Below are positions 1,902-20,836 of a DNA stretch of 64,000 nt, in pieces. The translations under genes were made by a program, and so were the position numbers. Under the pieces are notes generated by a model that saw only the letters and a list, made by a program, of their open reading frames with translations, did not search any database and had not been told where the DNA came from. The stretch is taken from NCBI RefSeq assembly GCF_000332195.1, contig NZ_KB235919.1, forward strand, positions 335,038 to 399,037, given 5' to 3'. The stretch is from Pleurocapsa sp. PCC 7319. GTDB lineage: Bacteria > Cyanobacteriota > Cyanobacteriia > Cyanobacteriales > Xenococcaceae. The number at the start of each line of letters is the position of its first letter. Positions within the stretch are counted from its first letter, which is position 1.

Positions 1902-4900
1902 ATGAAAATTTCTCAAGCAGATTTGCTCGCAATTGTCGTACAAGCTAGTACAATTGATGAGCGATTGAGCGATCGCTTTATTCCCGACCCAGAACAAATA
2001 GATGATAAGTTAATTAACTCTCGCATTGAGAAATGGTGTCAAACTGTTGCCAAAGGCGATCTAGAAAAATTTGCCAAACGTCTAGCTTGGTCAGATCTTG
2101 AACTAGAAAAGATTCGTTATGTCTTGGGAAATATTTGTTTAGCTGCTGGACAAACTCTCCCTGACTGGACAAAAACTTTGCAGGAAATATTGCTCAGTGA
2201 GTTAAATATAAAAAATGACCTTACTGACCGTTGTTTTGACCCCAAAAAGCCAATTCCCTTTGAAGAAGTATTTTTGCTATTGATTCGGGTCGCACGTCAA
2301 AAATTATTTTCCCAGACAGACAATAGCTATCAACTAGTTTCAGAAGAAGCTTTTACTAGTCTGGAACGTTCTCTATTAAAACAATTGGTATCTATTTGTC
2401 TTCCATGTCTACAGTCGGAATTTTCAATTTTTCGAGCATTAAAGCAGTCTTCTTTGACCTCTTTGCTAGAGCAACTGCAAGATAGTGTTTCTGACGAGCT
2501 ATACCAAAACTTTGTCAATGGGCTAACCACAGGAAGATTGCTGGCTTTCTTCAAAAAGTATAGCGTTCTAGCTCGTTTAGTATCGGTCACTATAGATTTT
2601 TGGGTAGAAGCAACTTCAGAATTTATTCGACGGTTAAAATCAGATTTACCAATTATTGAACAAACTTTTTTAAAAGATACCGATCAAGTCGTTTCTATTA
2701 AGCCCTGTCTGTCTGACTCTCACAATCAAGGGCGTTATGTAATGGCTCTTACCTTTGCCTCTGGTCTAAATCTGATTTATAAACCAAAAAACTTATCTTT
2801 GGAAGTAGCTTATTTCAAGTTACTAAATTGGTTAAACGCCGAGAAATCTTTATTACCTTTGCGACTACTTAAAGTCATTAATCGCAGCACTCATGGCTGG
2901 ATTGAGTATGTCGAACATTCATCCTGTGAAGATGAAGCAGGGGCAGAGCGATATTATCAGCGTGCTGGAATGCTTTTATGTCTAGTTTATATTCTAGGAG
3001 GAACTGACTGTCATCAGGAAAATTTGATTGCCAGTGGAGAACATCCAGTATTAATAGACATAGAAACTTTACTACATCCTCGCGTAGTTAATTTTGCTTG
3101 TACAGAAGAACAAGCAGGAGCGCAATTTTTAGCCACGCAGCAACTTATTGAGAACTCTGTGCTTAAAGTCGGATTACTGCCGCAATGGGATTTTGATGCG
3201 GATAAACAAGTAGCCTATGATGTCAGCGGTTTGGGGGGAATTGGGAAACAGGAGATTTCTGTAAAGATACCAAAGTGGCGGCATATTAATACTGACAAGA
3301 TGGAACTAGTACACGAACCTGGAACTATGGCAGCCACAATACCAACTCAGACTAATGCACCTTCATTAAATGGCATTACAGTTTCTCCCGATAAATATGT
3401 TGAAAAAATCGTAGATGGATTTGAGCAGATGTATCAATTTCTCATGGAACGAAGCACAAAGCTTCTTCTTTCTGATAGTCCTTTAGCTGCTTTGGCACAT
3501 CAGCGAGTACGATTTGTATTTAGAAGTACTCAAGTCTATGTCAGTATCCTAGCCAAAACTCTACATCCCAACTTTTTACGGCATGGAATAGATCGCAGTA
3601 TCGAGCTAGATATGCTGAAGCAAGGACTATTAGTAGCCGAAACCAAGCCTCCTGCTTGGTCGCTATTGAGATCGGAACAACAAGCTCTAGAACAATTAGA
3701 TATTCCTTATTTCATCGCAGACTCAAGTAGTGATTCTTTGACTGTAAGTTCTGACCTTAGTATTACAGGGTATTTCCAAAAACCTAGTTATAGTGATGTA
3801 ATTACTAATTTACAGCAGCTAAATAAGCAAAGCTTAGTACAGCAAATTTCTCTCATTCGATCTTCTTTATGTCTGCGGTTTGTCGGTAAGCCAAACAAAA
3901 CAGAATCTAGTCAGGATAGCAAGCCCCATCTGAGTTTTGAACCAGTTGTTTCCTTAACGCGATCGCAAATGGTTCAAGAAGCTGTGGCGATCGCCCAAGA
4001 ACTACAACAACGAGCAATTTACGGTACTGACGGTAGTGTTACTTGGATTGGTATGCAGTACATTCCTGGAGCTGAGCAGCTACAACTTCAGCCTTTGACC
4101 GATAGTCTATATGACGGGGTTTGTGGAGTCGCTTTATTTCTAGCAGCATTATCAAAAATAACTGGAAATTCTGATTTTCGAGATTTAGCATTAGGAGCTG
4201 TACAACAAGTCAGAAAAAATTTACAGGACGAAAAGCATAGATCTTACTCAAAAATCATCAAACGAATAGGAATTGGTGGAGCAACTGGAGCGGGATCTAT
4301 CGTTTATGCATTAGTCCGAATCAGTCAATTTTTGAATGAGCCAGATCTATTAGATTCAGCCAGAATTATAGCTTCGGAAATCCACCGAGAAATGATTACC
4401 CAAGATCGTTACTTTGACCTAATGCGAGGAACAGGAGGAGCAATACTAGGTTTGTTAGCCTTATACCAAGCTACTCTCGATCCAGCTATTCTAGAGCAAG
4501 TTACTGCCTGTGGATATCATCTTTTGAATAATCGTGTTGCTAGTAATTCTGCATTTAGGTCTTGGTCAACTTTAGATAATGAATTATTAACGGGCTTTTC
4601 TCATGGTGCAGCAGGTATTGCTTACGCTTTACTACGATTGTACGAAACTACACAAGAGCTATCTTTTCTAAAAGGTGCAGAGGAGGCAATTGCCTATGAG
4701 CAGAGCGTCTTTTCTCCAATTAAAGGCAATTGGCCGGATTTACGTTCATTTACCATTAAAAACGAAAACTCTTATTCGATGAGTAGTTGGTGTCATGGTG
4801 CCACAGGTATTGGTTTAGCGCGTTTAGGGAGTTTGATGGTAATAGATACGGAGGAAATTAGGCAGGATATTGCTGTTGCCTTAAAGACGACACAACGAGT

Positions 4901-5186
4901 TGGAACAAAGCACCTAGACCATCTTTGCTGTGGGAATTTTGGCAGAATAGAGATGTTATTAGTAGCTGCTTCAGAGTTATTGCGTCCAGAATTACAAAAA
5001 ACTGCTCAAAAACAAGCAGCACAAGCTATAGCTAGAGCAAAGCAAACGGGGTCTTTTTGTTTCTTTGCTGGAAATCTCAGGAATGTATATAATCCTGGTT
5101 TTTTTCGAGGTGTTGCTGGAATTGGGTATGAGCTATTGCGTTTAGGTTATCCAGATTCATTGCCCTCGGTATTGTTGTGGAAGTAA
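1902..5186 (+). CDS. lanM: Class II lanthipeptide synthetase LanM, CCG type
   Basis: This bifunctional enzyme dehydrates Ser/Thr in the precursor core and then cyclises Cys onto them. At 1094 residues it has normal LanM length. The N-terminal dehydratase (DUF4135, lipid-kinase-like fold) shows LIYKPKNL around residue 290 and GGTDCHQEN at about 366-374, followed by VLIDIETLLHP. The C-terminal LanC-like cyclase starts near residue 720 and repeats GxxHG/GxxG motifs. Its zinc ligands are Cys964 (WCHGATGIG) and the pair Cys1009-Cys1010 (LCCGNFG). Three cysteines with a CCG motif mark the clade that contains the substrate-tolerant ProcM, as known for that family. The two NHLP precursors upstream are its likely substrates. 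No Shine-Dalgarno is evident before the ATG. Confidence 0.95.
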   Translation: MKISQADLLAIVVQASTIDERLSDRFIPDPEQIDDKLINSRIEKWCQTVAKGDLEKFAKRLAWSDLELEKIRYVLGNICLAAGQTLPDWTKTLQEILLSELNIKNDLTDRCFDPKKPIPFEEVFLLLIRVARQKLFSQTDNSYQLVSEEAFTSLERSLLKQLVSICLPCLQSEFSIFRALKQSSLTSLLEQLQDSVSDELYQNFVNGLTTGRLLAFFKKYSVLARLVSVTIDFWVEATSEFIRRLKSDLPIIEQTFLKDTDQVVSIKPCLSDSHNQGRYVMALTFASGLNLIYKPKNLSLEVAYFKLLNWLNAEKSLLPLRLLKVINRSTHGWIEYVEHSSCEDEAGAERYYQRAGMLLCLVYILGGTDCHQENLIASGEHPVLIDIETLLHPRVVNFACTEEQAGAQFLATQQLIENSVLKVGLLPQWDFDADKQVAYDVSGLGGIGKQEISVKIPKWRHINTDKMELVHEPGTMAATIPTQTNAPSLNGITVSPDKYVEKIVDGFEQMYQFLMERSTKLLLSDSPLAALAHQRVRFVFRSTQVYVSILAKTLHPNFLRHGIDRSIELDMLKQGLLVAETKPPAWSLLRSEQQALEQLDIPYFIADSSSDSLTVSSDLSITGYFQKPSYSDVITNLQQLNKQSLVQQISLIRSSLCLRFVGKPNKTESSQDSKPHLSFEPVVSLTRSQMVQEAVAIAQELQQRAIYGTDGSVTWIGMQYIPGAEQLQLQPLTDSLYDGVCGVALFLAALSKITGNSDFRDLALGAVQQVRKNLQDEKHRSYSKIIKRIGIGGATGAGSIVYALVRISQFLNEPDLLDSARIIASEIHREMITQDRYFDLMRGTGGAILGLLALYQATLDPAILEQVTACGYHLLNNRVASNSAFRSWSTLDNELLTGFSHGAAGIAYALLRLYETTQELSFLKGAEEAIAYEQSVFSPIKGNWPDLRSFTIKNENSYSMSSWCHGATGIGLARLGSLMVIDTEEIRQDIAVALKTTQRVGTKHLDHLCCGNFGRIEMLLVAASELLRPELQKTAQKQAAQAIARAKQTGSFCFFAGNLRNVYNPGFFRGVAGIGYELLRLGYPDSLPSVLLWK

Positions 5187-8149: not shown

Positions 8150-8341
8150 ATGTCTGAGAATCAAGCTCGTCAAGAACAAGAATTTGAAGCTAATCAAAAT
8201 CAAACTCCTCAGGAGCCAGAAACTTCTGAAGCCTTATCTGAAGAAGATCTAGAAAATGTAACTGGTGGAGCTTTTACGGGAACAGTATGGCACAAAGATA
8301 AACATGGTAATGTAACATCAAAGAAAGGTACATGGCACTAG
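8150..8341 (+). CDS. Double-glycine leader peptide, putative RiPP/bacteriocin precursor without Cys
   Basis: This 63-residue peptide has a strong ribosome-binding site (AAAAAAGGAAA about 10 bases before ATG). Its acidic, Gln/Glu-rich leader ends in SEEDLENVTGG at residue 41, the consensus for C39-peptidase cleavage. It is not of the NHLP type because it lacks the PDE(I/V)xxxVxE...LYxVLP segment. The predicted core is AFTGTVWHKDKHGNVTSKKG plus TWH: 23 residues, no Cys, five Thr and one Ser, two Trp and three His. Without Cys, LanM could only dehydrate it, so another modification or none may apply. It lies about 400 bp upstream of the exporter genes. Confidence 0.75.
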   Translation: MSENQARQEQEFEANQNQTPQEPETSEALSEEDLENVTGGAFTGTVWHKDKHGNVTSKKGTWH

Positions 8342-8747
8342 CTAGCAGGAGATTATACAAATATCTCAGTAGAAAGAAATTATTGATCTGATACTAGTAG
8401 TTAGATTATCTGAAAGCAATATTTTGCTAAATTACTACTAGTTTTTGTCTCCCTCGCTCTCTAAATATTTTAAATTTAGGGAGCTTTGATGTATCAAACA
8501 TAATTTTGGAACAAAATTTTAGTGACATGACTGAAAAAACTGCATTAATTACCAAAATTTAGTCATTGTTTAGATCTATTTTGTTTTATATAGTTATTGC
8601 AAGTTAGTAATTGATTTGGGCTTATCAAATTTCATTAAAACTATATAAAATATTGTTTAAGTATTCATAAAAACATTGGTTACTGTTTTATCTCCCATCA
8701 ACTAACTAATTAAGCAATAACTATATACGATTAGGTTTAATTTCAAA
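8342..8747. promoter_or_regulatory. Intergenic region with hairpin upstream of the exporter genes
   Basis: This 406-bp AT-rich gap has no supported ORF. At 8456-8484, GCTCTCTAAAT and ATTTAGGGAGC form an imperfect 11-bp stem separated by seven bases. It is not followed by a long T run, so it may be an attenuator or processing site rather than a classic terminator. It separates the small precursor from the adaptor-transporter operon, which fits high precursor and lower transporter expression. Confidence 0.4.
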
Positions 8748-10781
8748 GTGAATAATAACCAGATTGAAGTAAATAATAACTATATAAACTCCTCTACATC
8801 AGATCGTAATGTTTTACATAATCCTAATCTCAATCTAGATGCACCTAATATTCGAGTTTTAATTGTTGATGCTCAACAATCTATATGTCAACATCTACAA
8901 TTGTTACTTGAGCCAGAAGCTGGGTTAGAAGTAGTAGGGACAGCTACTAATGGTGCAGTGGCGATTAACTTAATAGAATCTTTACAGCCAGAGATAGTTT
9001 TACTGGATGTGGAAATACCTGTAATGGATGGGTTCGAAACTATAGAAGTTATAGTGAAGCGCTTTCCTGGTTGCAAAATTCTCGTTCTAAGTTCCTCCGA
9101 TAATAAGGATGATATCAAGAAAGCCTTAAAAGCTGGAGCTCGGGGTTATTTACTTAAAAGTACTTCAATTGAAACGATCGCCGATTCGATTCGTTCTGCT
9201 GGCAAGAGGCACTTTCAACTTAGTCCAGGATTATTTACTAAAATTTTCTTGCCTAAATTGAACGGAGAAACAAAAGAAAATACTCAAACTTCAGAATCGG
9301 CAAAGCCCGAAAAATCTAAACAAAAAGATGGTTCTACTGCCAAAAAAGAAAACAAAATGTTTCGGCAAGAATCATTAGAGCGTTTATCTTCTCCCGAACG
9401 ACTGGATCAATTAATGCGGGTAGTTAATCCTAAAAGTTGGATTCCTCTAGCTACACTAGGAGTTTTGGGAGCATCTGCCTTAACTTGGAGTATTTTTGGA
9501 CGTATTCCCGTCACAATTCAAGGAGCAGGGGTGTTAGTTTATCCCAGTACTGTGGTTCCTGTACAGACAAAAAGTTCGGGACAACTAATAGATTTAAAAG
9601 TTAAAAATGGTGAGCTAGTTGAAAAAGGAGATGTCATAGCTACTATTGATCGTAGCGATCGCCGAGAAGAACTAGAATTAGCCTTGGCTCAATTGGCTCA
9701 ACTAAAAAAGCAAAACACAGAGGCTGAAGGAGTTCAAGATCGACGCAAAAATCAAGATTTACAAGCAATTCAAGAACAACGCCAAACTTTAGAGCAAAGA
9801 TTACAGATTTTAGAAGATTTAACTCCTACTCTAAAAGACAAAGGAGTATCAGCTATTCAACGTCAACGTCAAAACTTACAACAGCGTCAGCAAACTTTAG
9901 AAGAGTTGCGACCGACTTTTAAGCAAAGATTGGAAACTCGGCAAATGCTATTTGAAAGAGGAGCAATTTCTGAAGATGTTTTGCTGGAAGCGAGACAGCA
10001 ATACTACGATAATATCAGTGGCATTGATGAAGTTGAAGCTCAATTAAAAGAGTTGGATGTTCAAGAAGCGGACGCTCTTCAGCAATATCTTTCCAATTTG
10101 AATGAAGTTAAAAATGTCCAAGCTCAAATTCAAGAATTAGACAGTAAAAAAGCCAATTTAGCCCAACAAGACTGGGAAAATTCTACAAATCGTACTAAAG
10201 AAATTCAAGAAGTTGAACGTAAAATTGCTCAAATCCAGCAAGAAATCAACAGTGAAAGTCAAATTGTCAGCCAACATTCAGGAAAAATTCTCGAACTCAC
10301 TGTCAATCAAGGACAAGTCGTAGAAGCAGGAACTCGCCTAGCCAGTATCGATACTGATAATCAAGAGGGCAAACTAGTAGGTGTGACTTATTTCCCTGTT
10401 AAAGATGGTAAAAAAGTTCAACCTGGCATGGAAGTCCAAGTTACGCCTCAAACCATTAAGCGAGAAAGATTTGGTGGCATAGTAGGGACGGTAACTAAAG
10501 TTTCTTCATTCCCCATTACTACTGAAGCTGCCGCCAATGTGGTAGGAAATCCACAAATAATTGCCGGTTTAGTCCCAGAAACTGAACCAGTAGTAATTCA
10601 AATTTCGGCCAAATTAGACTTGAATCCCAGGACTTTTAGTGGTTATGAGTGGTCTTCTTCTGAAGGACCTAAATTGAAAATTTCTTCGGGAACAACCACA
10701 TCTGCCAGAGTCAAAGTAGAAGAAAGAGCACCTATTTCTTTTGTCTTTCCAATTTTGAGGTCTATCAGTGGTATCTACTAA
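8748..10781 (+). CDS. Receiver domain fused to NHLM-type HlyD secretion adaptor
   Basis: This 677-residue protein starts with GTG. Residues 35-155 form a response-regulator receiver domain: RVLIVDAQQ at the start, phosphoacceptor Asp87 in IVLLDVEIPVMDG, SSS at 115-117, Lys137 in GYLLKSTS. The usual acidic pair is reduced to Asp41-Ala42. A charged linker (about 170-210) leads to one membrane helix at 231-250. Then come a lipoyl/barrel-sandwich half, a coiled-coil hairpin rich in Gln (about 310-510) and the second half, SGKILELTVNQGQVVEAGTRLA, ending in a barrel domain. The second part matches membrane fusion proteins of NHLM bacteriocin export systems. The receiver would be cytoplasmic, placed to gate export or be regulated by a kinase. 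It overlaps the next gene by 14 bp. Confidence 0.9.
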   Translation: MNNNQIEVNNNYINSSTSDRNVLHNPNLNLDAPNIRVLIVDAQQSICQHLQLLLEPEAGLEVVGTATNGAVAINLIESLQPEIVLLDVEIPVMDGFETIEVIVKRFPGCKILVLSSSDNKDDIKKALKAGARGYLLKSTSIETIADSIRSAGKRHFQLSPGLFTKIFLPKLNGETKENTQTSESAKPEKSKQKDGSTAKKENKMFRQESLERLSSPERLDQLMRVVNPKSWIPLATLGVLGASALTWSIFGRIPVTIQGAGVLVYPSTVVPVQTKSSGQLIDLKVKNGELVEKGDVIATIDRSDRREELELALAQLAQLKKQNTEAEGVQDRRKNQDLQAIQEQRQTLEQRLQILEDLTPTLKDKGVSAIQRQRQNLQQRQQTLEELRPTFKQRLETRQMLFERGAISEDVLLEARQQYYDNISGIDEVEAQLKELDVQEADALQQYLSNLNEVKNVQAQIQELDSKKANLAQQDWENSTNRTKEIQEVERKIAQIQQEINSESQIVSQHSGKILELTVNQGQVVEAGTRLASIDTDNQEGKLVGVTYFPVKDGKKVQPGMEVQVTPQTIKRERFGGIVGTVTKVSSFPITTEAAANVVGNPQIIAGLVPETEPVVIQISAKLDLNPRTFSGYEWSSSEGPKLKISSGTTTSARVKVEERAPISFVFPILRSISGIY

Positions 10782-13026
10782 TATTTCTCCACCAAAACTC
10801 CAGGATATCTGGCGGTATCTCAAAAAATTGCTGCCTCAACCCAATCAGCGAGTTAAGACACCTACAGTTTTGCAAATGGAAGCAGTCGAGTGTGGTGCAG
10901 CAGCTTTAGGTATCATTCTTGGTTATCATGGTCGTATCGTACCGTTGCCCGAACTACGACAAGAATGTGGTGTTTCTCGCGATGGGAGTAAAGCATCAAA
11001 TGTACTCAAAGCAGGAAGAAGATACGGATTAGAAACCAAAGGTCTGAAAAAAGGCTTAGAAAAACTGCAAGAACTGGCCCCACCCTACATTGTGTTTTGG
11101 CAGTTTAACCATTTCTTAGTGGTAGAGGGACTTGGCGAACAACGAGTTTATCTTAACGATCCTGCCAGTGGACCGAGAAGTGTATCCTGGTCTGAGTTTG
11201 ATGAAGGATATACAGGTGTAGTTCTGGTCATGGAGCCAGGGGTTGAGTTTCGTAAAGGAGGCAAGAAACCTAATGTTTTGGTTTCTTTGCGATCGCGATT
11301 GCAATCTGTAGCTGGCGCTTTGGCTTACTGTATGGCAGCAGGATTGTTGCTGACCCTGGTTAAGTTATTAATTCCTGTATTTAGTCAAATATTTGTCGAT
11401 GAAATTTTAGTCCAGGGAAGAATGGATTGGCTACGTCCATTAATTTTAGCTATGGCAGTTACCGCAGTTTTTCAAGGAGCATTAACTCTACTGCAATTAC
11501 GCTATCTGCGTCGATTACAAATTAAACTTTCAGTGGCAATGTCTGGTAGTTTTCTCTGGCATATTCTTCGTTTACCTATCGGATTTTATGCTCAAAGATT
11601 TGCGGGAGAAATAAGCGATCGCACCCGTTTAAATAACGAAGTAGCAGAGGTTCTTTCGGGACAACTAGCAACCACCATTATTGATACAGCTATGATTGTA
11701 TTTTTTGCCGTAGTTATGTTTCAGTACGATGAAGTACTGACGATTATGGTGATTAGCTTTGCTGCCATCAATATTTTGACCCTTCGCTGGATTTATCGTC
11801 AGCGAGTAGATGCCAACCAAAAACTAATGCAGGATTATGGTAAAGCTGCTGGGGCATCAATTGCAGGACTTCAATATATCGAAACTCTCAAAGCATCGGG
11901 AGTAGAATCAGACTTTTTCTCCAAATGGTCTGGTTATTATGCTAAAGCACTTAATTCCCAACAAGAATTGGGAGTAGCTAATCAGTTTCTTTCCGGATTA
12001 CCCGTACTGTTAACGGCTCTTTCCTCTGCTTTACTGTTAGTAGTTGGAGGTTGGCGAGTTGTTGATGGACATCTTAGTATTGGGATGCTAGTGGCTTTTC
12101 AAGCAATAGTGAAGAATTTCCAAGAACCTGTCAACAATCTGGTCAACTTTGCGGGAACTATACAAGAATTAGAAGGGAATGTCATTCGTTTGGATGATGT
12201 ACTCAATAATCCCACCGAATCCTCTACTAACAATAAAGAAAAACTCTTATTAACTCCGCGAGCAGATAATAGTAAGATCACTCTTCCTATATCTGCTCGT
12301 TTAAAAGGATATATAGAATTAAACAATCTTACTTTTGGTTATAGTCGCCTCGATCCTCCCTTGATTGAAAACTTATCTTTATCCGTTAAACCTGGACAGC
12401 GTATTGCTTTTGTCGGTGGTAGTGGTTCTGGTAAATCTACTGTGGCAAAATTAGTTGCGGGACTCTACCAACCCTGGTCGGGAGAAATTCGCTTTGATAA
12501 TCGACTCAGACAAAAAATTCCTTATCAAATATTAACTAGTTCGATCGCGATGGTAGAACAGGATATTTTTCTGTTTACAGGAACAGTAAGAGATAACTTG
12601 ACTCTATGGGATAAAACTGTCGCCGATAAACATTTAAGACAGGCTTGCCAGGATGCTGCCATTGAAGATGTCGTTAATTCTCTACCAGGGGCTTATAACT
12701 CTGAGTTGCAAGAAGGAGGTGGCAATTTAAGTGGTGGTCAACGACAACGACTAGAAATTGCTCGTGCTTTAGTCAACAATCCTTCAATTCTGGTTATGGA
12801 TGAAGCTACTAGTGCTTTGGATGCAGAAACAGAAAAAATTATTGATGGTAATTTACGAAGACGAGGTTGTACTTGTCTAATCGTTGCCCATCGTCTGAGT
12901 ACGATCCGTGACTGCGACGAAATTATTGTCTTAGAAAGAGGCAAAGTAGTCCAAAGGGGTACCCACGAAGAACTATGGCAACAAGAAGGAGTTTATGCCC
13001 AACTAATTAAAAGTGGAGAAGGATGA
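10768..13026 (+). CDS. NHLM-type peptidase-containing ABC transporter (C39 peptidase, TMD, NBD)
   Basis: This 752-residue exporter should cleave the leader after the double glycine and pump the core out. The N-terminal C39 peptidase shows Gln36 and Cys42 (QMEAVECGAAALG), His115 (FNHFLVVEG) and Asp131 (YLNDPASG), so the catalytic set is complete. Six membrane helices cover about residues 180-450. The ATPase domain has Walker A GGSGSGKST, signature LSGGQRQRLEIARAL, Walker B ILVMDEATSALD and switch His in VAHRLS. It starts at GTG inside the end of the adaptor gene, so the two are translationally coupled. Substrates are probably all double-glycine precursors of the island. Confidence 0.95.
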   Translation: MVSTNISPPKLQDIWRYLKKLLPQPNQRVKTPTVLQMEAVECGAAALGIILGYHGRIVPLPELRQECGVSRDGSKASNVLKAGRRYGLETKGLKKGLEKLQELAPPYIVFWQFNHFLVVEGLGEQRVYLNDPASGPRSVSWSEFDEGYTGVVLVMEPGVEFRKGGKKPNVLVSLRSRLQSVAGALAYCMAAGLLLTLVKLLIPVFSQIFVDEILVQGRMDWLRPLILAMAVTAVFQGALTLLQLRYLRRLQIKLSVAMSGSFLWHILRLPIGFYAQRFAGEISDRTRLNNEVAEVLSGQLATTIIDTAMIVFFAVVMFQYDEVLTIMVISFAAINILTLRWIYRQRVDANQKLMQDYGKAAGASIAGLQYIETLKASGVESDFFSKWSGYYAKALNSQQELGVANQFLSGLPVLLTALSSALLLVVGGWRVVDGHLSIGMLVAFQAIVKNFQEPVNNLVNFAGTIQELEGNVIRLDDVLNNPTESSTNNKEKLLLTPRADNSKITLPISARLKGYIELNNLTFGYSRLDPPLIENLSLSVKPGQRIAFVGGSGSGKSTVAKLVAGLYQPWSGEIRFDNRLRQKIPYQILTSSIAMVEQDIFLFTGTVRDNLTLWDKTVADKHLRQACQDAAIEDVVNSLPGAYNSELQEGGGNLSGGQRQRLEIARALVNNPSILVMDEATSALDAETEKIIDGNLRRRGCTCLIVAHRLSTIRDCDEIIVLERGKVVQRGTHEELWQQEGVYAQLIKSGEG

Positions 13027-13060: not shown

Positions 13061-13130
13061 TCACAGAGGTAAGAAGTTTGGAGAATGGAGAAATAAACCG
13101 ATGGTTGTTAATTTTGTATAGATATTGAAA

Positions 13131-16055
13131 ATGGTTAGTTCCGAGAGTCAAGCACAATATCCCGAAAATCTAAAAGTACATACTTTTAATAGCAATGAAC
13201 CAATTCTGCTGAATGACCCACAAACAGTTTGGCAAATTCAATCCGGTTCTGTCTCATTATTTGCTGTCACAGTTAAAGATGGTATGACCGAGGAAAATCG
13301 TCGTTACCTTTTTAGTTGTGAATCTGGAGAAGCTCTTTTTGGTACTATTGCTAATCCCAATGAGATTGACTATCAAATATTAGCAATACCAATGGGGGAA
13401 GTGACTTTACTGAAGCTCAACCCAGAATTACTCCGACCATTAATTACTAATGAAAACTCTAATTTGACAACTTTAATCGATAAATGGTTAAAGAATTTTG
13501 ACACCAATCTTTTTAGTTCTACAGTACCGACTATTCACATCAAAGCAGCAGGAAAAGAAAGCTTTTCGCTTAATAAAGGTCAAACTCTACAACCGATCGC
13601 AGATACTGTTGTTTGGGTGCAACTTCGAGACGGGTTAGTACGATTACTAGGAATTAAAGAATTAATTATCACTGAGCAGATTAAAATTTTACCCATTCCT
13701 CACGATCTCTGGATTGAAGCAAGTTATGATACTCAACTAACTACAGAAATTACTAGTTCGTTGTCAGACATAGATGATTTATTGGAAGGAATATCTTTAT
13801 TTCATCGACACTTTCTGTTTTGTAATCGACTCATCCAAAAACAAGAGCAAAATGATGAATTAAAGCGATTAGCAGCTCTAGATAATCTCAACCAACAAGT
13901 TACGGCAGAAGCTTTAGGGGAGTTAGCATCTCCTTTAGCTTCTCAAAAAGATAACTTGATTATCGGAGATACTCCTCTATTAATAGCTGCTGGAGCAGTA
14001 GGAAGATCGTTGGGCATGAAAATTAGTCCTCCTGGTCAATCAGAAGATCTCAGCAGACTTGAAGATCCTTTACAAGCAGTTGCCAGAGCTTCTCGCTTAC
14101 GAACCAGGCAAGTATTATTACGAGATAATTGGTGGGAGCAAGATTGTGGTCCTTTGATTGGCTATATTCATTCTGAATCCAATAAACAAGCAGTAGCTTT
14201 ACTTCCCAAGGATTCTCATAGCTACGAATTATTAGATCCCGATAATCATACTCGCATTCCTATTGATAGCGATCGTGCCAAGGAAATCGAGCCAGTAGCT
14301 CAGATGTTTTATCGTTCTTTTGCTGATAAAGCCCTTTCTGTTTTCGATATTCTCAAGTTTGCGCTCAAAGGCAGATTTAGAGATATCTTAATTATTATTT
14401 TGACTAGCATTGCCATTACTTTGCTCGGAATGCTCACTCCCCAAGCTACGGCGATTATGATCGATAATTCTATTCCCGACAGCGATCGCTTTTCTTTAAT
14501 TCAAATTGGCTTGGGATTGGTTATTGCTGCTTTTGCCACCGCACTATTTCGTTTAGCTCAAGGATTTGCTCTTTTAAGAATCGAAACGACTTCTGATGCC
14601 TCGACTCAATCGGCAATGTGGGATCGACTACTTAATTTACCAGTCTCTTTTTTCCGTCAATTCACGACAGGAGATCTCTTATCTCGGACTAACTCCGTCA
14701 GTCAAATTCGACGACAACTCGGCAGTACTATCTTAATTAAATTAGTCACCAGTATTTTTGCCTTACTCAATCTAGGGTTACTCTTTTTCTATAGCGTACC
14801 TTTATCATTTATTGCTATTGGTACGGCGATCGTTATTATTGTTTTCACTGTTTTGTCTGGATCGATTTTAGTACGCAAAGTTAGACCTTTACTGGAAATC
14901 GAAGGTAACATTTTTGGGCAGGTTGTTCAGTTAATTAACGGAATCTCTAAATTACGAGTTGCTGGGGCAGAAGAAAGAGCTTTTGCTTTCTGGAGTAAAG
15001 ATTATAGTAAACAAATTAAACTTGAACTTAGTACTCAATTAATTGAAGATATTGTTGCTGTCTTCAATACCGTGATGCCGATACTTACTTCTGGTATCCT
15101 CTTCTGGTTCACAGTCCATTTACTTAAGCAGGCAGAGACAACTGGTAAAGCAGGATTGACAGTGGGAACTTTTTTAGCTTTTAATAGTGCTTTTGCTACC
15201 TTTATCAGTGGTTCAACTGAAGTAAGTAATATAGCTACGGATATCTTACAGGTTATTCCTCAGTGGCAACGAGCGCAGCCCATTGTCGAGACTTTACCTG
15301 AAGTCGATCTTAGTAGAGCAGATCCAGGGCAACTTATTGGCAGAATTAGCATAGATCGGGTATCTTTTCGCTATAGTCCGGATATTCCTTTAACTCTAGA
15401 AAATGTCAGTATTAAAGCTGAACCAGGAGATTTTATTGCTTTAGTTGGTGGCTCTGGCAGTGGGAAGTCAACTATTTTCCGCCTTTTACTGGGATTTGAA
15501 ACTCCTGAAGATGGGAGTATTTATTATGATGGTCAAGATTTATCAGGGCTTGATGTTAGTGCTGTACGTCGACAGTTGGGTGTGGTTTTGCAGAACGGCA
15601 CAATCATGTCTGGTTCAATTTTCGATAATCTGGCTGGAGGAGCTAGAATTACTCTGGATGAAGCTTGGCAAGCATCTCGCATGGCTGGTTTTGATCGTGA
15701 TATTGATAGTATGCCTATGGGGATGCATACAGTTATTAGCGAGGGAGGAGGTAATCTTTCTGGAGGACAGCGACAGCGACTTCTAATTGCCAAAGCTTTA
15801 ATACTAAAACCTCGTATCTTGCTGTTCGATGAAGCTACCAGTGCCTTAGATAATACGACCCAGGCGATCGTCAGTGAAAACTTAGATCGATTGCAAGTAA
15901 CTAGAATTGTGATTGCTCATCGACTGAGTACAATTCGCAATGCCGATCGCATCTATGTATTAGAAACAGGCAGAGTAGTTCAGCAGGGAAGCTTTGAAGA
16001 ACTCGCTACTCAAAAAGGACTATTCTCCAATTTGATGAAAAGACAAACAGCTTAA
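13131..16055 (+). CDS. NHLM-type second ABC transporter (regulatory N-terminus, TMD, NBD)
   Basis: This is the partner ABC protein of NHLM export systems. The N-terminal ~390 residues include cyclic-nucleotide-binding-like segments (IQSGSVSLFAV, CESGEALFGTI) and a C39-like domain lacking the catalytic Cys. Membrane helices lie around residues 420-720. The ATPase domain has GGSGSGKSTIFRL, LSGGQRQRLLIAKAL, ILLFDEATSALD and IAHRLST. An alternative start at TTG 13125 adds two residues; ATG is preferred as neither has a clear ribosome-binding site. The C39 transporter and this protein may act as a pair, with this one in a regulatory or dimer-partner role. Both ATPase sites look intact. Confidence 0.93.
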   Translation: MVSSESQAQYPENLKVHTFNSNEPILLNDPQTVWQIQSGSVSLFAVTVKDGMTEENRRYLFSCESGEALFGTIANPNEIDYQILAIPMGEVTLLKLNPELLRPLITNENSNLTTLIDKWLKNFDTNLFSSTVPTIHIKAAGKESFSLNKGQTLQPIADTVVWVQLRDGLVRLLGIKELIITEQIKILPIPHDLWIEASYDTQLTTEITSSLSDIDDLLEGISLFHRHFLFCNRLIQKQEQNDELKRLAALDNLNQQVTAEALGELASPLASQKDNLIIGDTPLLIAAGAVGRSLGMKISPPGQSEDLSRLEDPLQAVARASRLRTRQVLLRDNWWEQDCGPLIGYIHSESNKQAVALLPKDSHSYELLDPDNHTRIPIDSDRAKEIEPVAQMFYRSFADKALSVFDILKFALKGRFRDILIIILTSIAITLLGMLTPQATAIMIDNSIPDSDRFSLIQIGLGLVIAAFATALFRLAQGFALLRIETTSDASTQSAMWDRLLNLPVSFFRQFTTGDLLSRTNSVSQIRRQLGSTILIKLVTSIFALLNLGLLFFYSVPLSFIAIGTAIVIIVFTVLSGSILVRKVRPLLEIEGNIFGQVVQLINGISKLRVAGAEERAFAFWSKDYSKQIKLELSTQLIEDIVAVFNTVMPILTSGILFWFTVHLLKQAETTGKAGLTVGTFLAFNSAFATFISGSTEVSNIATDILQVIPQWQRAQPIVETLPEVDLSRADPGQLIGRISIDRVSFRYSPDIPLTLENVSIKAEPGDFIALVGGSGSGKSTIFRLLLGFETPEDGSIYYDGQDLSGLDVSAVRRQLGVVLQNGTIMSGSIFDNLAGGARITLDEAWQASRMAGFDRDIDSMPMGMHTVISEGGGNLSGGQRQRLLIAKALILKPRILLFDEATSALDNTTQAIVSENLDRLQVTRIVIAHRLSTIRNADRIYVLETGRVVQQGSFEELATQKGLFSNLMKRQTA

Positions 16056-16359
16056 GAAGTTATTCCTTTGTATTGCTAAAAAAATGTGATTTTTAACTTG
16101 AAAAACAACAACAATCTACTGTTAAAAGTATTCATAATTAAATTATTAATTGGTCAAACAATTTTAGATTTACTCTTTTTATCCAAATAAAAAGAAAAAT
16201 TAAAACAAAACTAATATTCTTATATCTGCTATTGCACTGCATATTAGAAAATTAGTTAATCGGTGAAGAGTATACTTGTTTAGTTTAAGCTAGCAAATCA
16301 TCTAAATAAGACAATTAATTACATCTATTCGTCTAATATCTATTAATTAGGAGTAACCA
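16056..16359. other. AT-rich intergenic region before the truncated precursor
   Basis: About 300 bp with no ORF. A good ribosome-binding site (TTAGGAGTAACC) lies directly before the ATG at 16360, so the downstream gene was a genuine, well-translated precursor. No clear terminator follows the ABC gene. Confidence 0.4.
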
Positions 16360-16560
16360 ATGTCTAATAACTATCAAAATATCATTGAACACCTTTGGGA
16401 AAATCCCACAAGTAAAGAGGATTTTATGACTGAACCCAAGTCATACTTAGCCAAACAAGGAGTAGAAATCCCCGAAAATGTAAAAGTATTTGCCTATGCA
16501 GGCACTTCTAAAGAACTTTACTTAGTCTTACCTCCTCAGGGTAAGCGCAAGAAAATTTAG
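16360..16560 (+). CDS. NHLP-type precursor truncated by ISAs1 insertion
   Basis: Residues 1-59 match an NHLP leader: helical N-terminus, LAKQGVEIPENVKVFAYAG, then SKELYLVLPP, the same segment that reads LYMVLP in the precursors at 718 and 1251. From residue 60 (QGKRKKI) the codons lie inside the terminal repeat of an ISAs1 element that starts at 16537. The double-glycine site and core are therefore missing, and the stop is supplied by the transposon. The strong ribosome-binding site remains, so a leader-only peptide may still be made. It could compete for LanM or the transporter, but more likely it is a remnant. Confidence 0.8.
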   Translation: MSNNYQNIIEHLWENPTSKEDFMTEPKSYLAKQGVEIPENVKVFAYAGTSKELYLVLPPQGKRKKI

Positions 16561-17865
16561 GTATCAGATAGGTTAGACTTTAGGGGAATCGAAGCAGCGA
16601 GAACTTTGAGTAAATAGCCCTGGTCCATGCTGGCTCGCCTCGCTTAGAAACGAGTGCTGCGCTTACAGCTCGTTTCTTGATTAAGTAGATTAATGCTCCA
16701 TCGTTTCAGTAAAGCGATATTTTCAGGAGCATTGCCTGTACGAATACGGCAGGCATCTTCCCCAAAAGTCACATCTAATATCCAATGGAGTTGGTTCTCA
16801 ATTGACCAATGCTGTCGGATTGCTCTGCCCAGTTGTTGAGCATCAGGAGAGAGAGAACTAAGATAGAACATCACCTCACGGGTGGTCTTATTCCATAGAT
16901 GGCGGGTGCGAATAACCATCACGATAGTTTGTAATCCAGACTACTGGGTCTGTTTGTACAAATCCCCCATCTGAGAGATAGAAACAGCCCAAACCTGTCG
17001 TTTTTCACGACGGTGATGTCCTGATTCTACTCGTACATCATAACTGTACTCAATGCTCTCAAAGTTGTACGCTTGGGCGTTTTCAAACCATTGTTGTACC
17101 TGGGTGTGTAAAGTAGGATGATTAGCTTTCAGTGCCAGGACATAGTCAGCACCAAGAGTAACAATGCGATGGGCGATTTTATGTTGAGTTCCCATCGCGT
17201 CAATAGTAATGATGCTTCTGGAAATATCTAATAGTTCCAGAAGGGCTGGAATAGCTGTAATTTCATTACTTTTAGACTCGACTTTAACTTGACCCAGAAA
17301 CAATCGGTGTTTACTGGCCCAAGCACTGACACAATGTAAAGCCGATTGAGAGCCATTGCGGTCGTACGAACCCTTAAGTGTTTTACCATCAATGGGAATG
17401 ACCTCTGCCCCTAAATCAATTACTAAACTGCTCAACCAACCATTGAAACTCTTTTCTAAAGCTTGAGGTGAAATTCTTTCAAATAATCTTCGGTAAGTAT
17501 CGGCACTCGGAATCCCGAAAGGTAAGTTCAAGAAGCTAGATAACCATTCCTCATGACTTACACCGTAAATTTCAATATCTTCCCATCCTTGCGCTCCGCC
17601 AATTGTCGCGAGTAAGGCGATCGTCACAATACTGATAAATGGATGAAGCACACCTTGAGAGCCTCTGGGGTCTTCTAAATCCTCAAAATGCTCTGCTAAT
17701 TGTTGTTGTAATTGTTCGCCATCAATAGCAGGTTTGAGTGACGAGGATTTACTACTTTTCTTTCTGGAGACAGACGCTTCAGCAAAACCTTTAACCATTG
17801 GGAATCCTGATTATGAGATGATTCTCTTAGCATATTACAGCTTTATTTTTCTTGCGCTTACCCTG
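16537..17865 (-). mobile_element. ISAs1-family insertion sequence, 1329 bp, degenerate
   Basis: The terminal inverted repeats are CAGGGTAAGCGCAAGAAAA at 16537-16555 and its reverse complement ending at 17865 (TTTTTCTTGCGCTTACCCTG). The single ORF is an ISAs1-type transposase with two in-frame stops. The 10 bases on the left (CTTACCTCCT) and right (CAATAGCAAT) do not match, so no target duplication is visible. A missing duplication together with a truncated gene on the left and an N-terminally odd ORF on the right suggests that an adjacent deletion accompanied or followed insertion. Confidence 0.85.
16557..17798 (-). pseudogene. ISAs1 transposase with two nonsense codons
   Basis: Translation from 17798 gives ISAs1 motifs: HFEDLEDPRGSQGVLHP, ATIGGAQGWEDIEIYG, VIPIDGKTLKGSYD, IITIDAMGTQHKIA, HWSIENQLHWILDVTFGEDA. 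Frame is kept throughout, but TAG at 16943-16941 (after LYKQTQ, where the family usually has Trp) and TAA at 16646-16644 (after KRSTRF) interrupt it. Past the second stop, the same frame reads MDQGYLLKVLAA, the conserved C-terminus, ending at 16557. There are thus two point nonsense mutations and no frameshift. The element is dead unless complemented in trans. Confidence 0.88.
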
Positions 17866-17873
17866 CAATAGCA

Positions 17874-18236
17874 ATGTGTCAGGCTTTGGCATATTGGGCA
17901 AATTCTGAGCCACTTTTTTTCTTCTACGCGATCGCAATTATCAAACAAAAAGCGAAGCAAAATTGGCAAATTTACCTTGCAGCTTGTGAACGAACTAAAG
18001 TAGATTCTCAATTTCTGACTTTTATTAGAAAATTGACACAGCTCAATCAAGAAAATCAACATCAAAGACTAATACATAGTCTGTTTCAAGAAGTTCCTCA
18101 TTTGGAAGAGGAAACTAAACAGCGATTTAGAGGACAAATTTATCTGTTTATGGAAATGTATCATCATTTCCATAGTGCAATCTGGAATCACTATTCTTCT
18201 ACTCATGATTTGTTGCGATCGGTTTCTCTAATCTAA
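17874..18236 (+). CDS. Hypothetical helical protein, possibly 5'-truncated by the ISAs1 element
   Basis: This 120-residue protein is not recognised. It is rich in aromatic residues and His near the end (FMEMYHHFHSAIWNHYSSTHD) and seems all-helical. The ATG lies only eight bases right of the transposon end, and the frame stays open upstream into the terminal repeat, so the original gene may have been longer and lost its start. No signal peptide or double glycine is present. It precedes the diiron-oxidase gene by 86 bp on the same strand and may have been its partner. Whether it is still expressed is unknown. Confidence 0.5.
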   Translation: MCQALAYWANSEPLFFFYAIAIIKQKAKQNWQIYLAACERTKVDSQFLTFIRKLTQLNQENQHQRLIHSLFQEVPHLEEETKQRFRGQIYLFMEMYHHFHSAIWNHYSSTHDLLRSVSLI

Positions 18237-18246
18237 TCAAATTCTA

Positions 18247-18310
18247 ATCAACAAGTTAACTTCCTAACAAAATAGCTTCTCAACAAGATAGCTTTTCAAC
18301 AAGATAACTT
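18247..18310. repeat. Four tandem 16-bp direct repeats upstream of the diiron-oxidase gene
   Basis: Four imperfect units lie head to tail: ATCAACAAGTTAACTT, CCTAACAAAATAGCTT, CTCAACAAGATAGCTT and TTCAACAAGATAACTT, ending 12 bases before the ATG at 18323. The shared core is CAACAAGATA(A/G)CTT. Spacing of 16 bp is not helical-phase exact. They may be a regulator-binding array, an mRNA element overlapping the 5' UTR, or slippage products. Confidence 0.7.
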
Positions 18311-18322: not shown

Positions 18323-19333
18323 ATGTTTTTAATTCAAGACTATAAAAAACCTTTATTTAAAGAGCAAGTCTTTTTTAATTTTAAAGATACTAGTGTTCAA
18401 ATTACCTATGGTACTCAAGAATATTTACTCTCAGTTGAACCAGAAAACCAACCGCAAACAACTAAACTATTAAAATTATTACAGACTGGCAATTTATCAT
18501 TGCCACAATTAGTTCAAGTTTGTCCCGACATTGAGGAACAGATACCTGAATTACTATTAGAGTTTGACCGCTTGGGAATGATCCAAGAAACCCAAGCTCA
18601 AATTGCAATTCAGCCAATGACTGGACTACAGTTCTATCGAGAGATACGACGTTTTTTGCAGCGTTGGCAAAACCAGATTGTTCATCCTTTAGCTTTTCAG
18701 AAGATGACTGAAGGAACGATTACTAGAGAGCAATTAATTGGCTATGCTCTAGAATCCTATCACGTTACTCATTTGTGTCCTCGTCTGTTGGCTGGTTCCT
18801 TAACTAAGCAGGAAACACCTGAGACTTATCAACTCCTTCAAGAATTTTTCGTTTCTGAACTGTATCATGATCGCTTAATCACAAATTCTTTAGCCAGCGT
18901 GGGAATTGAAGAAACACAACTTGAACAGATACAGCCTTTACCGATGACTTTTGCTATTTGTTCTGCTTTAGCTGTTTTTGCTCAACAGCATCCTTTAAGT
19001 TTTAAATTGGCACTATGGTTATTTGAACAAGACGATCCCAAGTTTTTAGAGTTATTCAAACAGTGTTGTCAGGATCGGGATTTGCCGAGGGAATTTTATC
19101 AACCGATTTTGTTACACGCCAAGATTAATGATGAAGGAGAACATGAGCAGATAACCAAGAATTTGCTGGCAGAAGTAGCTTATATTTCCGTTGAAGAACA
19201 GTTGCGGGTCAAGAAGAATATGGCAATTCTTCAAGAGTCAATCATCCTACGCGATCGCCATATTATCGATTATTATGGCAATCCTCATAATATTATTCCT
19301 CGTTATTTCAGCGGTAATATTACAAAAGCTTGA
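18323..19333 (+). CDS. Heme-oxygenase-like diiron oxidase with N-terminal winged-helix-like domain
   Basis: This 336-residue protein has two parts. Residues 1-95 resemble a small winged-helix domain (STR-like strands, then LLKLLQTGNLSLPQLVQ and PELLLEFDRLGMIQE), as in RRE-like or PqqD-like leader readers; this is inference. Residues 100-330 form an all-helical heme-oxygenase/TenA/PqqC-like fold. Candidate metal ligands are Glu144 (ALESYH), Glu179 and His182 (SELYHD), Glu235 (WLFEQ), Asp270 and His274 (NDEGEH). Order and spacing closely follow the UndA-type diiron oxidases as I recall them. These enzymes activate oxygen on small acids, amino acids or peptides. Between a precursor remnant and the tandem-leader precursor, it is a good candidate for a RiPP-tailoring oxidase. 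Confidence 0.75.
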   Translation: MFLIQDYKKPLFKEQVFFNFKDTSVQITYGTQEYLLSVEPENQPQTTKLLKLLQTGNLSLPQLVQVCPDIEEQIPELLLEFDRLGMIQETQAQIAIQPMTGLQFYREIRRFLQRWQNQIVHPLAFQKMTEGTITREQLIGYALESYHVTHLCPRLLAGSLTKQETPETYQLLQEFFVSELYHDRLITNSLASVGIEETQLEQIQPLPMTFAICSALAVFAQQHPLSFKLALWLFEQDDPKFLELFKQCCQDRDLPREFYQPILLHAKINDEGEHEQITKNLLAEVAYISVEEQLRVKKNMAILQESIILRDRHIIDYYGNPHNIIPRYFSGNITKA

Positions 19334-19499
19334 ATTCATTGTGCAATAGTATTTATTTACCAATTAATACTCACTATTGATATGACTTTTATAGCTTTAA
19401 TCTTAATAATTACTAGTTTATCCAAAAATTAATTCATTGTAATTATCTTTTACTTTTCATAAGCTAGTGCATAGAGAAAATATAAAACTAGAAATATAT

Positions 19500-19994
19500 A
19501 TGACTAAAAAAAGTAAAATCTATCAACAAGTTTCTGAGCAATTATTAATAGATAAAAATTTTCAAGAACGGTTTTTAAGCGCTCCAAAATCAGTACTAAA
19601 TGAGATGGGTATAAATATTCCTGATTCAGTTCAAGTTGAGGTTCATGAAGACACGGCGCGGATTAAAAATATTGTGATCCCTGAAAGCCTATTAGAAGAA
19701 GACGAATCAACTGCTTCTAATCCTTTATACAGACAAATAGTTATTAAAGCTTGTGAAGATCAAAACTTTAAAACTCAGTTAATGCAAAACCCTAAAGTGG
19801 CGATCGCACTTTTGACTGGAGAGAGTGTACCAGAAGATCTGGAAATCCGTGTTTATAAGAATACTTCTATCCTCATGCATCTAGTTATCTATCTCGAAGG
19901 AGCAAATGAAGAATTGAGCGAGCAAGAATTGGAAACTGTTGCTGGAGGAAAATCAGTATTATCCAGTGGTAATTGGGCTGGATTGGTCTATTAA
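19500..19994 (+). CDS. Tandem-leader NHLP-type precursor
   Basis: The ATG at 19500 (MTKKSKIYQQVSEQ) is preferred over an upstream GTG at 19467. The 164-residue product holds two NHLP leader domains in series: about residues 5-67 (IYQQVSEQLLIDKNFQERFL, NIPDSVQVEVHED, IVIPESL) and 73-148 (LYRQIVIKACEDQNFKTQLM, VPEDLEIRVYKN, LMHLVIYLEG). Only the second ends in a double glycine (ELSEQELETVAGG). The core is KSVLSSGNWAGLVY, 14 residues with three Ser and no Cys. No thioether is possible, so dehydration or oxidation by the neighbouring diiron enzyme are alternatives. Other NHLP precursors in the island have one leader only. Confidence 0.82.
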   Translation: MTKKSKIYQQVSEQLLIDKNFQERFLSAPKSVLNEMGINIPDSVQVEVHEDTARIKNIVIPESLLEEDESTASNPLYRQIVIKACEDQNFKTQLMQNPKVAIALLTGESVPEDLEIRVYKNTSILMHLVIYLEGANEELSEQELETVAGGKSVLSSGNWAGLVY

Positions 19995-20055: not shown

Positions 20056-20238
20056 ATGCACTTAGTTATCTATCGCGATTTTGCTATCGAAAAGTTGGGT
20101 AAGAAAGAACTGGAAACTGTTGCTGGAGATTTTATTGAGGGACTTATATCTGCTACTCCCTCCTTCAATGCGTTTAGAAATTGGAAGCAAAAAAATGAAA
20201 AAAAAACCAATGTTATTGGCTCGACAAAGAGCTATTAA
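20056..20238 (+). pseudogene. Degenerate duplicate of the 3' end of the tandem-leader precursor
   Basis: From about 20032, the DNA repeats the end of the preceding gene: ACTCTCATGCACTTAGTTAT copies the stretch coding SILMHLVIY. The 60-residue frame continues ELETVAGD, so the double glycine has become Gly-Asp and the leader lacks everything before MHLVIY. The tail (DFIEGLISATPSFNAFRNW then a Lys-rich end) is unlike the other core. It has no proper ribosome-binding site and overlaps the next gene in another frame. It is probably a duplication scar, although a short translated peptide cannot be excluded. Confidence 0.55.
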
Positions 20239-20836
20239 AGCACGCCAAAAGGCTAGCCTGGGAAACTTTAGTTCTGGTTATGAATTTGGTGGGTGGAAAA
20301 GTTTACTAGATAATCATGTCCAATCTCCAAAACCGAGTCCCAAAAATTTTTCTTTGAACGACTTAGTCAAGCCAGACTTGGAGCAAAACAAAGTTGCTAA
20401 CAAGCGCAAACCTTTTGCCGAAATAACTCTTTGTCCGAGCGCACCAGCAGACTCAGATGAGGCTGTGGTGTTTGGTGTAGTTGAAGGGACAATTGAATCT
20501 CCTCGCATAGCTTATTTAGATGAATCTCAACCTATTACTGAAGAAATTCAAAATTTAGCGTCTCCTGGCAAGCCATCTGAAATGATGCGTATCGCTACCT
20601 CTTGTATAAAAAAAGAATGCTTAAATTTTGATGGTTCGGATTGTCGCTTGGCAAAGAAAATTGTCGAACAGTTACCTAGTGTCACTGAAACCTTACCTGC
20701 TTGCCAAATCCGCTCTAACTGTCGTTGGTGGCAACAAGAAGGGAAATCAGCCTGTCTACGTTGCCCTCAAGTTGTGACAGAAAACTACTATACTTCTCCC
20801 TTGTTTGAGCGAGTATCAGAGCCAAAGACTAACTAA
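20195..20836 (+). CDS. Hypothetical Cys-rich protein of the RiPP island
   Basis: The start at 20195 (MKKKPMLLARQRAIKARQ) has GGAAG seven bases upstream and is preferred over the long upstream extension, which shadows the degenerate precursor. The 213-residue product has a basic N-terminus, a disordered middle and a C-terminal block of seven cysteines: CIKKEC, SDC, PAC, SNC, SAC and LRC, between about residues 145 and 200. The pairs and spacing suggest a zinc or iron-sulfur site or disulfides. I do not recognise the family. It follows two precursors on the same strand and is likely co-expressed with them. Confidence 0.65.
   Translation: MKKKPMLLARQRAIKARQKASLGNFSSGYEFGGWKSLLDNHVQSPKPSPKNFSLNDLVKPDLEQNKVANKRKPFAEITLCPSAPADSDEAVVFGVVEGTIESPRIAYLDESQPITEEIQNLASPGKPSEMMRIATSCIKKECLNFDGSDCRLAKKIVEQLPSVTETLPACQIRSNCRWWQQEGKSACLRCPQVVTENYYTSPLFERVSEPKTN

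Follow-up and report, generated by a model that had tools for sequence, protein, structure and literature searches.

A predicted two-subunit oxidase pairing RRE-type and heme-oxygenase-like domains, the C-terminal motif of its neighboring peptides, and a broken copy in Pleurocapsa sp. PCC 7319

HDO-B (P0001) is encoded in a 64,000-nucleotide stretch of the Pleurocapsa sp. PCC 7319 genome (the window) and joins an RRE-type domain to a domain resembling the heme-oxygenase-like diiron oxidases (HDOs). Comparison with its relatives makes it moderately probable that HDO-B is the catalytic member of a two-subunit RiPP-tailoring oxidase, composed of A and B proteins, which would oxidize the last residue of a peptide. 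The copy in the window is probably a stranded, non-functional subunit of such a pair. The features of the window are listed in Table 1.

Table 1. Features of the window, with positions counted from its first nucleotide
Feature	Position	Strand	Basis
Two ORFs with NHLP-like leaders, at the window start	718-1083, 1251-1583		
LanM-type class II lanthipeptide synthetase (DUF4135 + LANC_like)	1902..5186	+	domain scan
Receiver domain fused to NHLP-type HlyD adaptor	8748..10781	+	domain scan
NHLM ABC1 peptidase/exporter (C39 peptidase)	10768..13026	+	domain scan
NHLM ABC2 exporter	13125..16055	+	domain scan
First leader half of a Hyella-type double-leader NHLP precursor (remnant)	16360..16536	+	match to L003:7585-8109, 8267-8773
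IS element, 1,329 bp, with 19-bp perfect terminal inverted repeats	16537..17865	.	repeat ends
Transposase split in two ORFs	16941-17798, 16644-16922	both -	DDE_Tnp_1_assoc and DDE_Tnp_1 domains
HDO-A remnant, residues 245-367 (ORF 17874-18236)	17866..18236	+	tblastn of Hyella A, 85% identity
HDO-B (P0001), RRE-HDO fusion, 336 aa	18323..19333	+	ORF list, Pfam
Residues 1-97 of HDO-B, predicted RRE-type winged helix, three strands then helices	18323..18613	+	AF2 model, PDB fold matches
Predicted metal-site residues E179, H182 (D183), E235, H265, N269/D270, H274	18857..19144	+	conservation in 30 B; alignment to MboA chain
Intact NHLP precursor with two NHLP-like halves, end ...GGKSVLSSGNWAGLVY	19467..19994	+	NCBIfam leader_NHLP E 5.3e-32

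The reading frame named in a preliminary description of this DNA is real and exact in its coordinates, strand, and length, and the Pleurocapsa genome has a single full copy plus a fragment of a relative. The best Pfam match of HDO-B is TENA_THI-4 (E 4.4e-9, residues 113 to 295), and Haem_oxygenas_2 scores slightly below the cut-off (E 4.8e-6). Built from five sequences, a full-length AF2 model reaches pLDDT 64 and pTM 0.55, a modest quality, and has the heme-oxygenase-like helical fold of the HDO superfamily; the underlying alignment, A4, includes both A and B rows. The joint A-B alignments A1 and A6 misplace the RRE strands, and A6 was kept out of the structure work. In Foldseek the nearest PDB folds to the model are CtCADD (E 5.7e-5), FlcD, and 3dde. 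In VIA the same model (pLDDT 64) scores Z 17.0 against 3dde (rmsd 3.5, 220 aligned); heme oxygenase reaches 15.3, and HrmI, CADD, and a TenA each reach 14.5. Heme oxygenase thus fits no worse than the HDOs, and the fold by itself cannot choose among them.

Sequence profiles give a similar set of relatives. Searched against PDB sequences, a profile of 17 members (15 B and 2 A) finds 3dde (E 8.3e-7), CtCADD (E 1.8e-5), and MboA (E 0.006), and the MboA alignment with B places E, H, E, H, and H in register. The heme-oxygenase-like fold with a metal-site motif is thus upheld by Pfam, Foldseek, VIA, ligand conservation, and the profile alignment to MboA. The special tie to UndA claimed in the preliminary description is not supported and looks too specific. 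The best matches are 3dde, CtCADD, and FlcD, with MboA added by the profile search; in Foldseek UndA comes only 26th (E 2.3e-3), and it is absent from the 29 PDB-sequence matches of the profile at E values up to 10.

The extra N-terminal region of about 95 residues is a real domain, and its fold matches point to a winged helix of the RRE type. Residues 1 to 97 modeled alone (AF2, pLDDT 75.6) are predicted to form a three-strand, three-helix winged helix of the PqqD type, with weak Foldseek E values (best 0.006, none below 0.001). Structural Z scores are 8.8 for ThcOx, 7.7 for TbiB1, 7.4 for PbtF, and 6.0 for PqqD. RiPP enzymes account for 20 of the best 22 fold matches and include ThcOx, the PbtF RRE, lasso B1 proteins, heterocyclases, MccB, McbBCD, and PqqD, most of which presumably carry an RRE; for PbtF this is given in the title of the structure. 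The other two, MINA53 and BmdC, are non-RiPP enzymes and were taken as similar in fold only. Further, a profile of 13 A N-terminal domains searched against PDB sequences ranks the PbtF RRE first (E 0.0023), and Pfam and NCBIfam return weak, scattered matches for these domains, several of them winged helices and one of them ocin_ThiF_like (E 0.037). The PbtF RRE is described in a co-crystal with a leader fragment (PMC12710340). The idea that the N-terminal domain binds a leader is therefore partly supported, in that it holds as a predicted RRE-type fold.

The proposed metal site is conserved across the B proteins. We tabulated ligand positions in 29 A and 30 B sequences, leaving the third HDO-like proteins of the Robbsia and Tistrella loci (below) outside the table. 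In all 30 B sequences E144, E179, H182, D183, E235, H265, N269, and H274 are invariant, whereas position 270 carries an acidic residue (D or E) in 29 sequences, the exception being a T in the L058 copy, which is damaged. The six residues singled out in the preliminary description (Glu144, Glu179, His182, Glu235, Asp270, and His274) are thus correct as letters, and five are invariant, which exceeds chance; D270 varies, and H265, the third histidine of the site, had been missed. The superfamily motif is described as E-H-E-H-(D/E)-H (PMC11363339), and E144 falls outside it as mapped.

The ligands reported for MboA are Glu86, His89, Glu143, His172, Asp176, and His181, with Asp90 as an alternative ligand in one crystal chain (PMC13185094). 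By spacing and profile alignment Glu86 and His89 correspond to B residues E179 and H182, Glu143 to E235, His172 to H265, and His181 to H274; in the profile alignment Asp90 corresponds to D183, and the canonical aspartate Asp176 to N269, with D/E270 adjacent. Five of the six motif positions therefore match, and motif position five is Asn followed by Asp or Glu. N269 is also found in the three A proteins that keep their ligands. As strict alignment gives Asn at the fifth ligand position in the whole family, the predicted metal site may be non-canonical.

Searches for relatives covered overlapping sets of genomes. Among 386 cyanobacterial genomes four had a match, including a doubtful one with nine stops in G171; relatives were also found in 16 of 388 genomes of the order with fragments and weak matches counted, and in 13/217, 6/27, and 3/20 genomes of three families; a partner (A) profile search of the class gave 6 of 388 genomes. 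The non-cyanobacterial relatives come from plasmid records. The plasmid collection yielded four matching records, three of which carry A-B pairs: Robbsia andropogonis p4 (L045), Tistrella mobilis pTM3 (L046), and Rhodococcus gordoniae pDND3A (L047). Among viral contigs, 41 pattern matches contained no relative. Several loci were dropped: L013 and L049 as copies of L004 and L003, L059 and L060 as B fragments in G488 and G498, L086, L007, L048, G517, and G532 as distant or doubtful HDO matches, and L061 in G612. The last encodes a distant, single RRE-HDO-like protein without a partner and counts against the pair model. The L048 cluster (3523-9125), on an Enterobacter chuandaensis plasmid, contains two more iron-containing redox enzymes, an M14 peptidase, and an MFS protein, with an aminotransferase immediately upstream. 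The resulting survey set comprises 31 loci from cyanobacteria, Robbsia, Tistrella, and Rhodococcus, which are related, so that counts over them are non-independent.

At 27 of the 31 loci an intact B is preceded by, or fused to, an RRE-HDO protein A. The A and B profiles match each other with 99.2% probability, and in a tree excluding A_L085 and B_L058 they form two groups (100/100), with some long branches. A and B are a single ORF in Tistrella and in two cyanobacteria (L098 and L099), which argues for a physical partnership. H182, E235, and H265 are missing in all 25 full-length cyanobacterial A proteins, and H274 in 24 of them, whereas the A proteins of Robbsia, Tistrella, and Rhodococcus keep E179, H182, E235, H265, and H274; the degeneration of A therefore seems to have taken place within cyanobacteria. 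The pair is visibly damaged at three loci: L085, where A is only 135 aa long, L058, with an in-frame stop in B, and the window, with its IS element and deletion. L101 ends at a contig end with A alone visible. After the pair, Robbsia and Tistrella encode a third HDO-like protein of larger size (L045 9008-10498 and L046 11005-12603). At two other loci the spaces between Nif11-type precursors contain short copies of the HDO-B gene's 3' end (one in L079, two in L080), as though a precursor had been tandemly duplicated together with the tail of B.

Beside every one of the 27 intact pairs lies a peptide gene whose product ends in [V/I/A/M]-x-Leu, often P-V-I-L. With L101, 28 of the 31 loci have at least one such adjacent peptide, and the loci without one are the three with a damaged pair. 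In Robbsia, Rhodococcus, and Tistrella it is a small ORF upstream of A with a ribosome-binding site recognized by eye: 27 aa ending RPVLIPVHL in Robbsia; a 46-aa ORF ending AVAVHL in Rhodococcus, reduced to 17 aa by an inner ATG of our choice; and a 60-aa ORF ending EKPVLIAVHL in Tistrella. The cyanobacterial neighbors are mostly Gly-Gly-leader peptides, with ends including LPYTIVIL, GPYSPVIL, LPHTAVIL, LPWCAVVL, VWCPVIL, PYEPVIL, and FCPVHL; their leader types differ while their ends are similar. Beside the intact pair of L084 (G797; 6056-8479), four precursors end VNH, VGH, VFH, and SAH and a fifth ends PVHL; judging from these sequences, that pair perhaps accepts a C-terminal His.

Across the 31 loci the pattern [PA]V[IVH]L ends 26 of 912 same-strand ORFs within 3 kb upstream, 2 of 438 within 1.5 kb downstream, both of them Gly-Gly-leader precursors, and 1 of 10,454 other ORFs, that one a precursor too. 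Fisher's test of upstream against other ORFs gives p 6e-28, a value that is overstated because the loci are related and the pattern was chosen post hoc, being fixed after most peptides had been inspected by eye. Peptides that were new to us and were found by the pattern are those of Tistrella, L083, and L099 and one of L098. The ends were also counted by leader type. Precursors with 'ELFxDSE' leaders end in [VIAM]xL in 18 of 23 cases upstream of the pair, 2 of 5 downstream, and 0 of 11 far from it; four of the five upstream exceptions end in His (all in L084) and one in Trp (L077). For 'IENLxxLQE' leaders the counts are 13 of 14 upstream and 1 of 3 far, the three far precursors lying farther up the L051 locus and all ending in Leu. 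NHLP leaders (0/1 downstream, 0/5 far) and Nif11-type leaders (0/6 downstream, 2/4 far) complete the set. The absence of the motif far from the pair among 'ELFxDSE' precursors favors the link to the pair, whereas the His and Trp ends, the Tyr end of the intact precursor in the window, the low downstream counts, and the two far Nif11-type precursors with the motif speak against it. A RiPP-cluster setting is indicated by the NHLP precursor and NHLM exporters of the window and by the motif-bearing precursors beside the pairs. The genes of a class II/V lanthipeptide cluster are confirmed in L050 alone (LanM, an APH-like kinase, and HopA1, E 1.9e-63); lanthipeptide contexts at other loci come from reading ORF listings by eye, and the Robbsia and Rhodococcus stretches have no annotated LanM or kinase plus HopA1-type protein.

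Five characterized HDOs (MboA, AetD, UndA, HrmI, and PolF) are reported to bind the substrate carboxylate at Fe1 (PMC13185094), and by this analogy the pair most likely oxidizes the C-terminal residue of a peptide. A free C-terminal V-x-L beside an RRE-HDO pair in three phyla, where the other cluster genes differ, fits this carboxylate-anchoring mode. Each subunit joins an RRE-type domain to a heme-oxygenase-like domain. In the mechanism that we propose, B would hold the metal site and pair with A as a heterodimer, and the cyanobacterial A, its site lost, would probably serve in pairing and peptide binding. The RREs of A and B would bind the leader or body of the precursor, and the C-terminal motif (often -P-V-[I/H/V/T]-L) would enter the active site of B with its free carboxylate on the metal. 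With O2 activated, the last residue would be oxidized, Leu as a rule and His as well in one genome; the site and the type of reaction are our proposal. The outcome might be a desaturation, as by MboA on a C-terminal Arg and apparently by VarO on a RiPP Arg, or an oxidative decarboxylation, as by UndA on a fatty acid. The C-terminal motif could also be a recognition tag or the site of another enzyme. The Robbsia cluster encodes a class III aminotransferase and a GNAT, and the Rhodococcus cluster an MFS exporter and a GNAT; by analogy with the daptides, these would suit a carbonyl or amine end. We put forward only tentatively a more far-reaching version: a new RiPP class in cyanobacteria, Proteobacteria, and Actinomycetota would be defined by the RRE-HDO pair, one half of it dead in cyanobacteria, with an Asn-for-Asp iron site, and the C-terminal Leu of -P-V-[I/H]-L would be decarboxylated to leave an enamide or carbonyl end, which the class III aminotransferase and the GNAT enzyme of Robbsia could process further.

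In the window the pair is broken. HDO-B indeed lies in a RiPP-cluster setting, with NHLP export genes on its 5' side and an NHLP precursor on its 3' side. The receiver-adaptor fusion has a counterpart in a distant cyanobacterium (L100, 15064-17070, response-regulator receiver). The Hyella patelloides locus (L003), whose B is 87% identical to HDO-B, matches the window at 16211-16543, with the first part of a double-leader NHLP precursor, and at 17871-18263, with the end of A. The reading frame of the precursor remnant runs into the IS element as far as 16560, and the A remnant lacks its first 244 residues, with which the RRE and part of the HDO domain (about two thirds of A) are gone. Taking the nearer of two Hyella precursors as the counterpart of the remnant, about 1.15 kb are missing, comprising the precursor's core and second leader half and residues 1 to 244 of A. 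On this alignment, the IS element plus a deletion removed most of A together with the matching precursor's core; since both pair and precursor were cut, the window copy is probably vestigial.

The preliminary description had considered a Cys-free NHLP core, here the peptide downstream of HDO-B, as a substrate. That now appears unlikely, as the peptide ends in GLVY, with a C-terminal Tyr outside the family motif, whereas the precursors of relatives end in V/I/A/M-x-L, and the partner and matching precursor have been cut away at the IS element. The same peptide has a frame-broken relative in the Hyella locus (DNA match at L003 6861-7141, a stretch with stops). Precursors with tandem NHLP-like leader halves (L003 7585-8773, window 19467-19994) are present at loci where a pair of RRE-bearing subunits would act, a match in number that may be chance. 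At 20056-20238 the window has a decayed NHLP precursor-like ORF (ELETVAGD..., ending STKSY), overlapping an ORF for a Cys-rich protein (C...C...CRWW...C..CPQV, by eye) of a kind that occurs near three clusters (window 20081-20836, L012 7597-8052, and L057 16808-17074). The window and L012 copies have no Pfam match; a role as redox partner for the oxidase is conceivable.

Other explanations can be set against oxidation of the last residue. An enzyme pair that oxidizes an inner core residue (e.g., Tyr, Trp, Cys, or Thr, 3 to 6 before the end), with V-x-L serving only as a docking tag, is unlikely: an aromatic residue and Cys, Thr, or Ser do often precede the motif (PYCYAIL, PWCAVVL, LPYTIVIL), but the Robbsia (LIPVHL), Tistrella (LIAVHL), and Rhodococcus (AVAVHL) peptides keep V-H-L without the aromatic-Cys part, and the carboxylate anchoring described for other HDOs (PMC13185094) also speaks against it. 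We consider it highly improbable that HDO-B is a metal-free enzyme of the PqqC/TenA type or a pure binding protein. Despite its best Pfam match, TENA_THI-4, and the Asn at ligand position five, three histidines and two glutamates (E179, H182, E235, H265, and H274) are invariant in the 30 B proteins from Cyanobacteria, Proteobacteria, and Rhodococcus. These five predicted ligands, in the HDO motif, argue that HDO-B is not a plain metal-free PqqC/TenA protein, in line with the diiron-oxidase reading of the preliminary description.

It is distinctly unlikely that the HDO-B of the window remains active on the downstream NHLP peptide with its GLVY end, whether by itself or together with the A remnant. 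The gene is intact with its ligands kept, and relative to Hyella dN is 0.064 and dS 0.344 (0.079 and 0.358 for the A remnant). Nor is there a clear speed-up: relative-rate tests of B with seven outgroups give 11 to 16 window-specific against 5 to 8 Hyella-specific changes (p 0.03 to 0.50), from which the break may be recent. However, the RRE of A is gone along with part of its HDO domain, the family motif is missing from the peptide, and dN/dS mostly mirrors the time before the break; no second A was found in the Pleurocapsa genome among the candidates scored (4/4; 5/13 in the partner-profile search). Oxidation of the C-terminal residue by an intact A-B pair is our preferred reading for the family.

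We found no description of the RRE-HDO pair or of the -PVIL precursors in the open-access literature searched, which is no proof of absence. HDOs are said to number more than 10,000 sequences with about a dozen characterized, mostly on fatty or amino acids (PMC13108848). This family combines a built-in RRE-type domain, a sister subunit without a metal site in one phylum, and a predicted substrate end, so that enzyme, partner, and substrate are testable together. If the proposal is true, the pair would offer a genome-mining handle for C-terminally oxidized RiPPs, a natural experiment in how a dead HDO subunit aids a live one, and a possible route to altering peptide C termini.

Among known systems, the mangotoxin acetylenase MboA (PDB 9ypi) is an HDO like B, with ExxHD...E...H...H in register, and is reported to act on the side chain of a tripeptide's C-terminal Arg with the carboxylate at Fe1 (PMC13185094). 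It differs in that its substrate is made by a pathway with ATP-grasp amino-acid ligases and is no ribosomal precursor, in that it aligns to the HDO part of B alone, and in having Asp where B has Asn269. VarO is a heme-oxygenase-like protein already known in a RiPP pathway and is described as required for a double bond between C-beta and C-gamma of Arg in the thiovarsolins, whose peptides are APR and GPR (PMC6511847). Because VarO is already tied to a RiPP, the expectation of chemistry new to RiPPs is weakened. Unlike HDO-B, VarO belongs to a YcaO-TfuA cluster with a repeat precursor, a comparison drawn from its published description (PMC6511847). The N-terminal domain of FlcD and SznF is termed a superhelical linker and not an RRE (PMC11363339). 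CtCADD, UndA, FlcD, and HrmI resemble HDO-B in fold and in much of the ligand pattern; unlike it, they act on small molecules or, in the case of CADD, on a tyrosine of the protein itself.

PQQ derives from a peptide, and in the PqqC-PqqD fusion PqqCD (PDB 5vrd, 5vrc, 5sxy) a heme-oxygenase-like and an RRE-type domain are joined, as in HDO-B. In PqqCD, unlike HDO-B, the domain order is reversed and the chemistry is described as metal independent (PMC13108848). Like the daptide systems, the Robbsia cluster includes an aminotransferase, of class III. The Rhodococcus layout (tiny peptide, RRE enzyme, MFS, and GNAT) also resembles that of microcin C. The text of the daptide paper does not contain the term 'heme oxygenase' (PMC10036551). 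It describes how MpaB/MpaC, with delivery by an RRE, oxidatively decarboxylate a conserved residue at the C terminus, after which an aminotransferase acts; unlike HDO-B, the daptide enzyme is of the alcohol dehydrogenase type, and the residue is a C-terminal Thr (PMC10036551).
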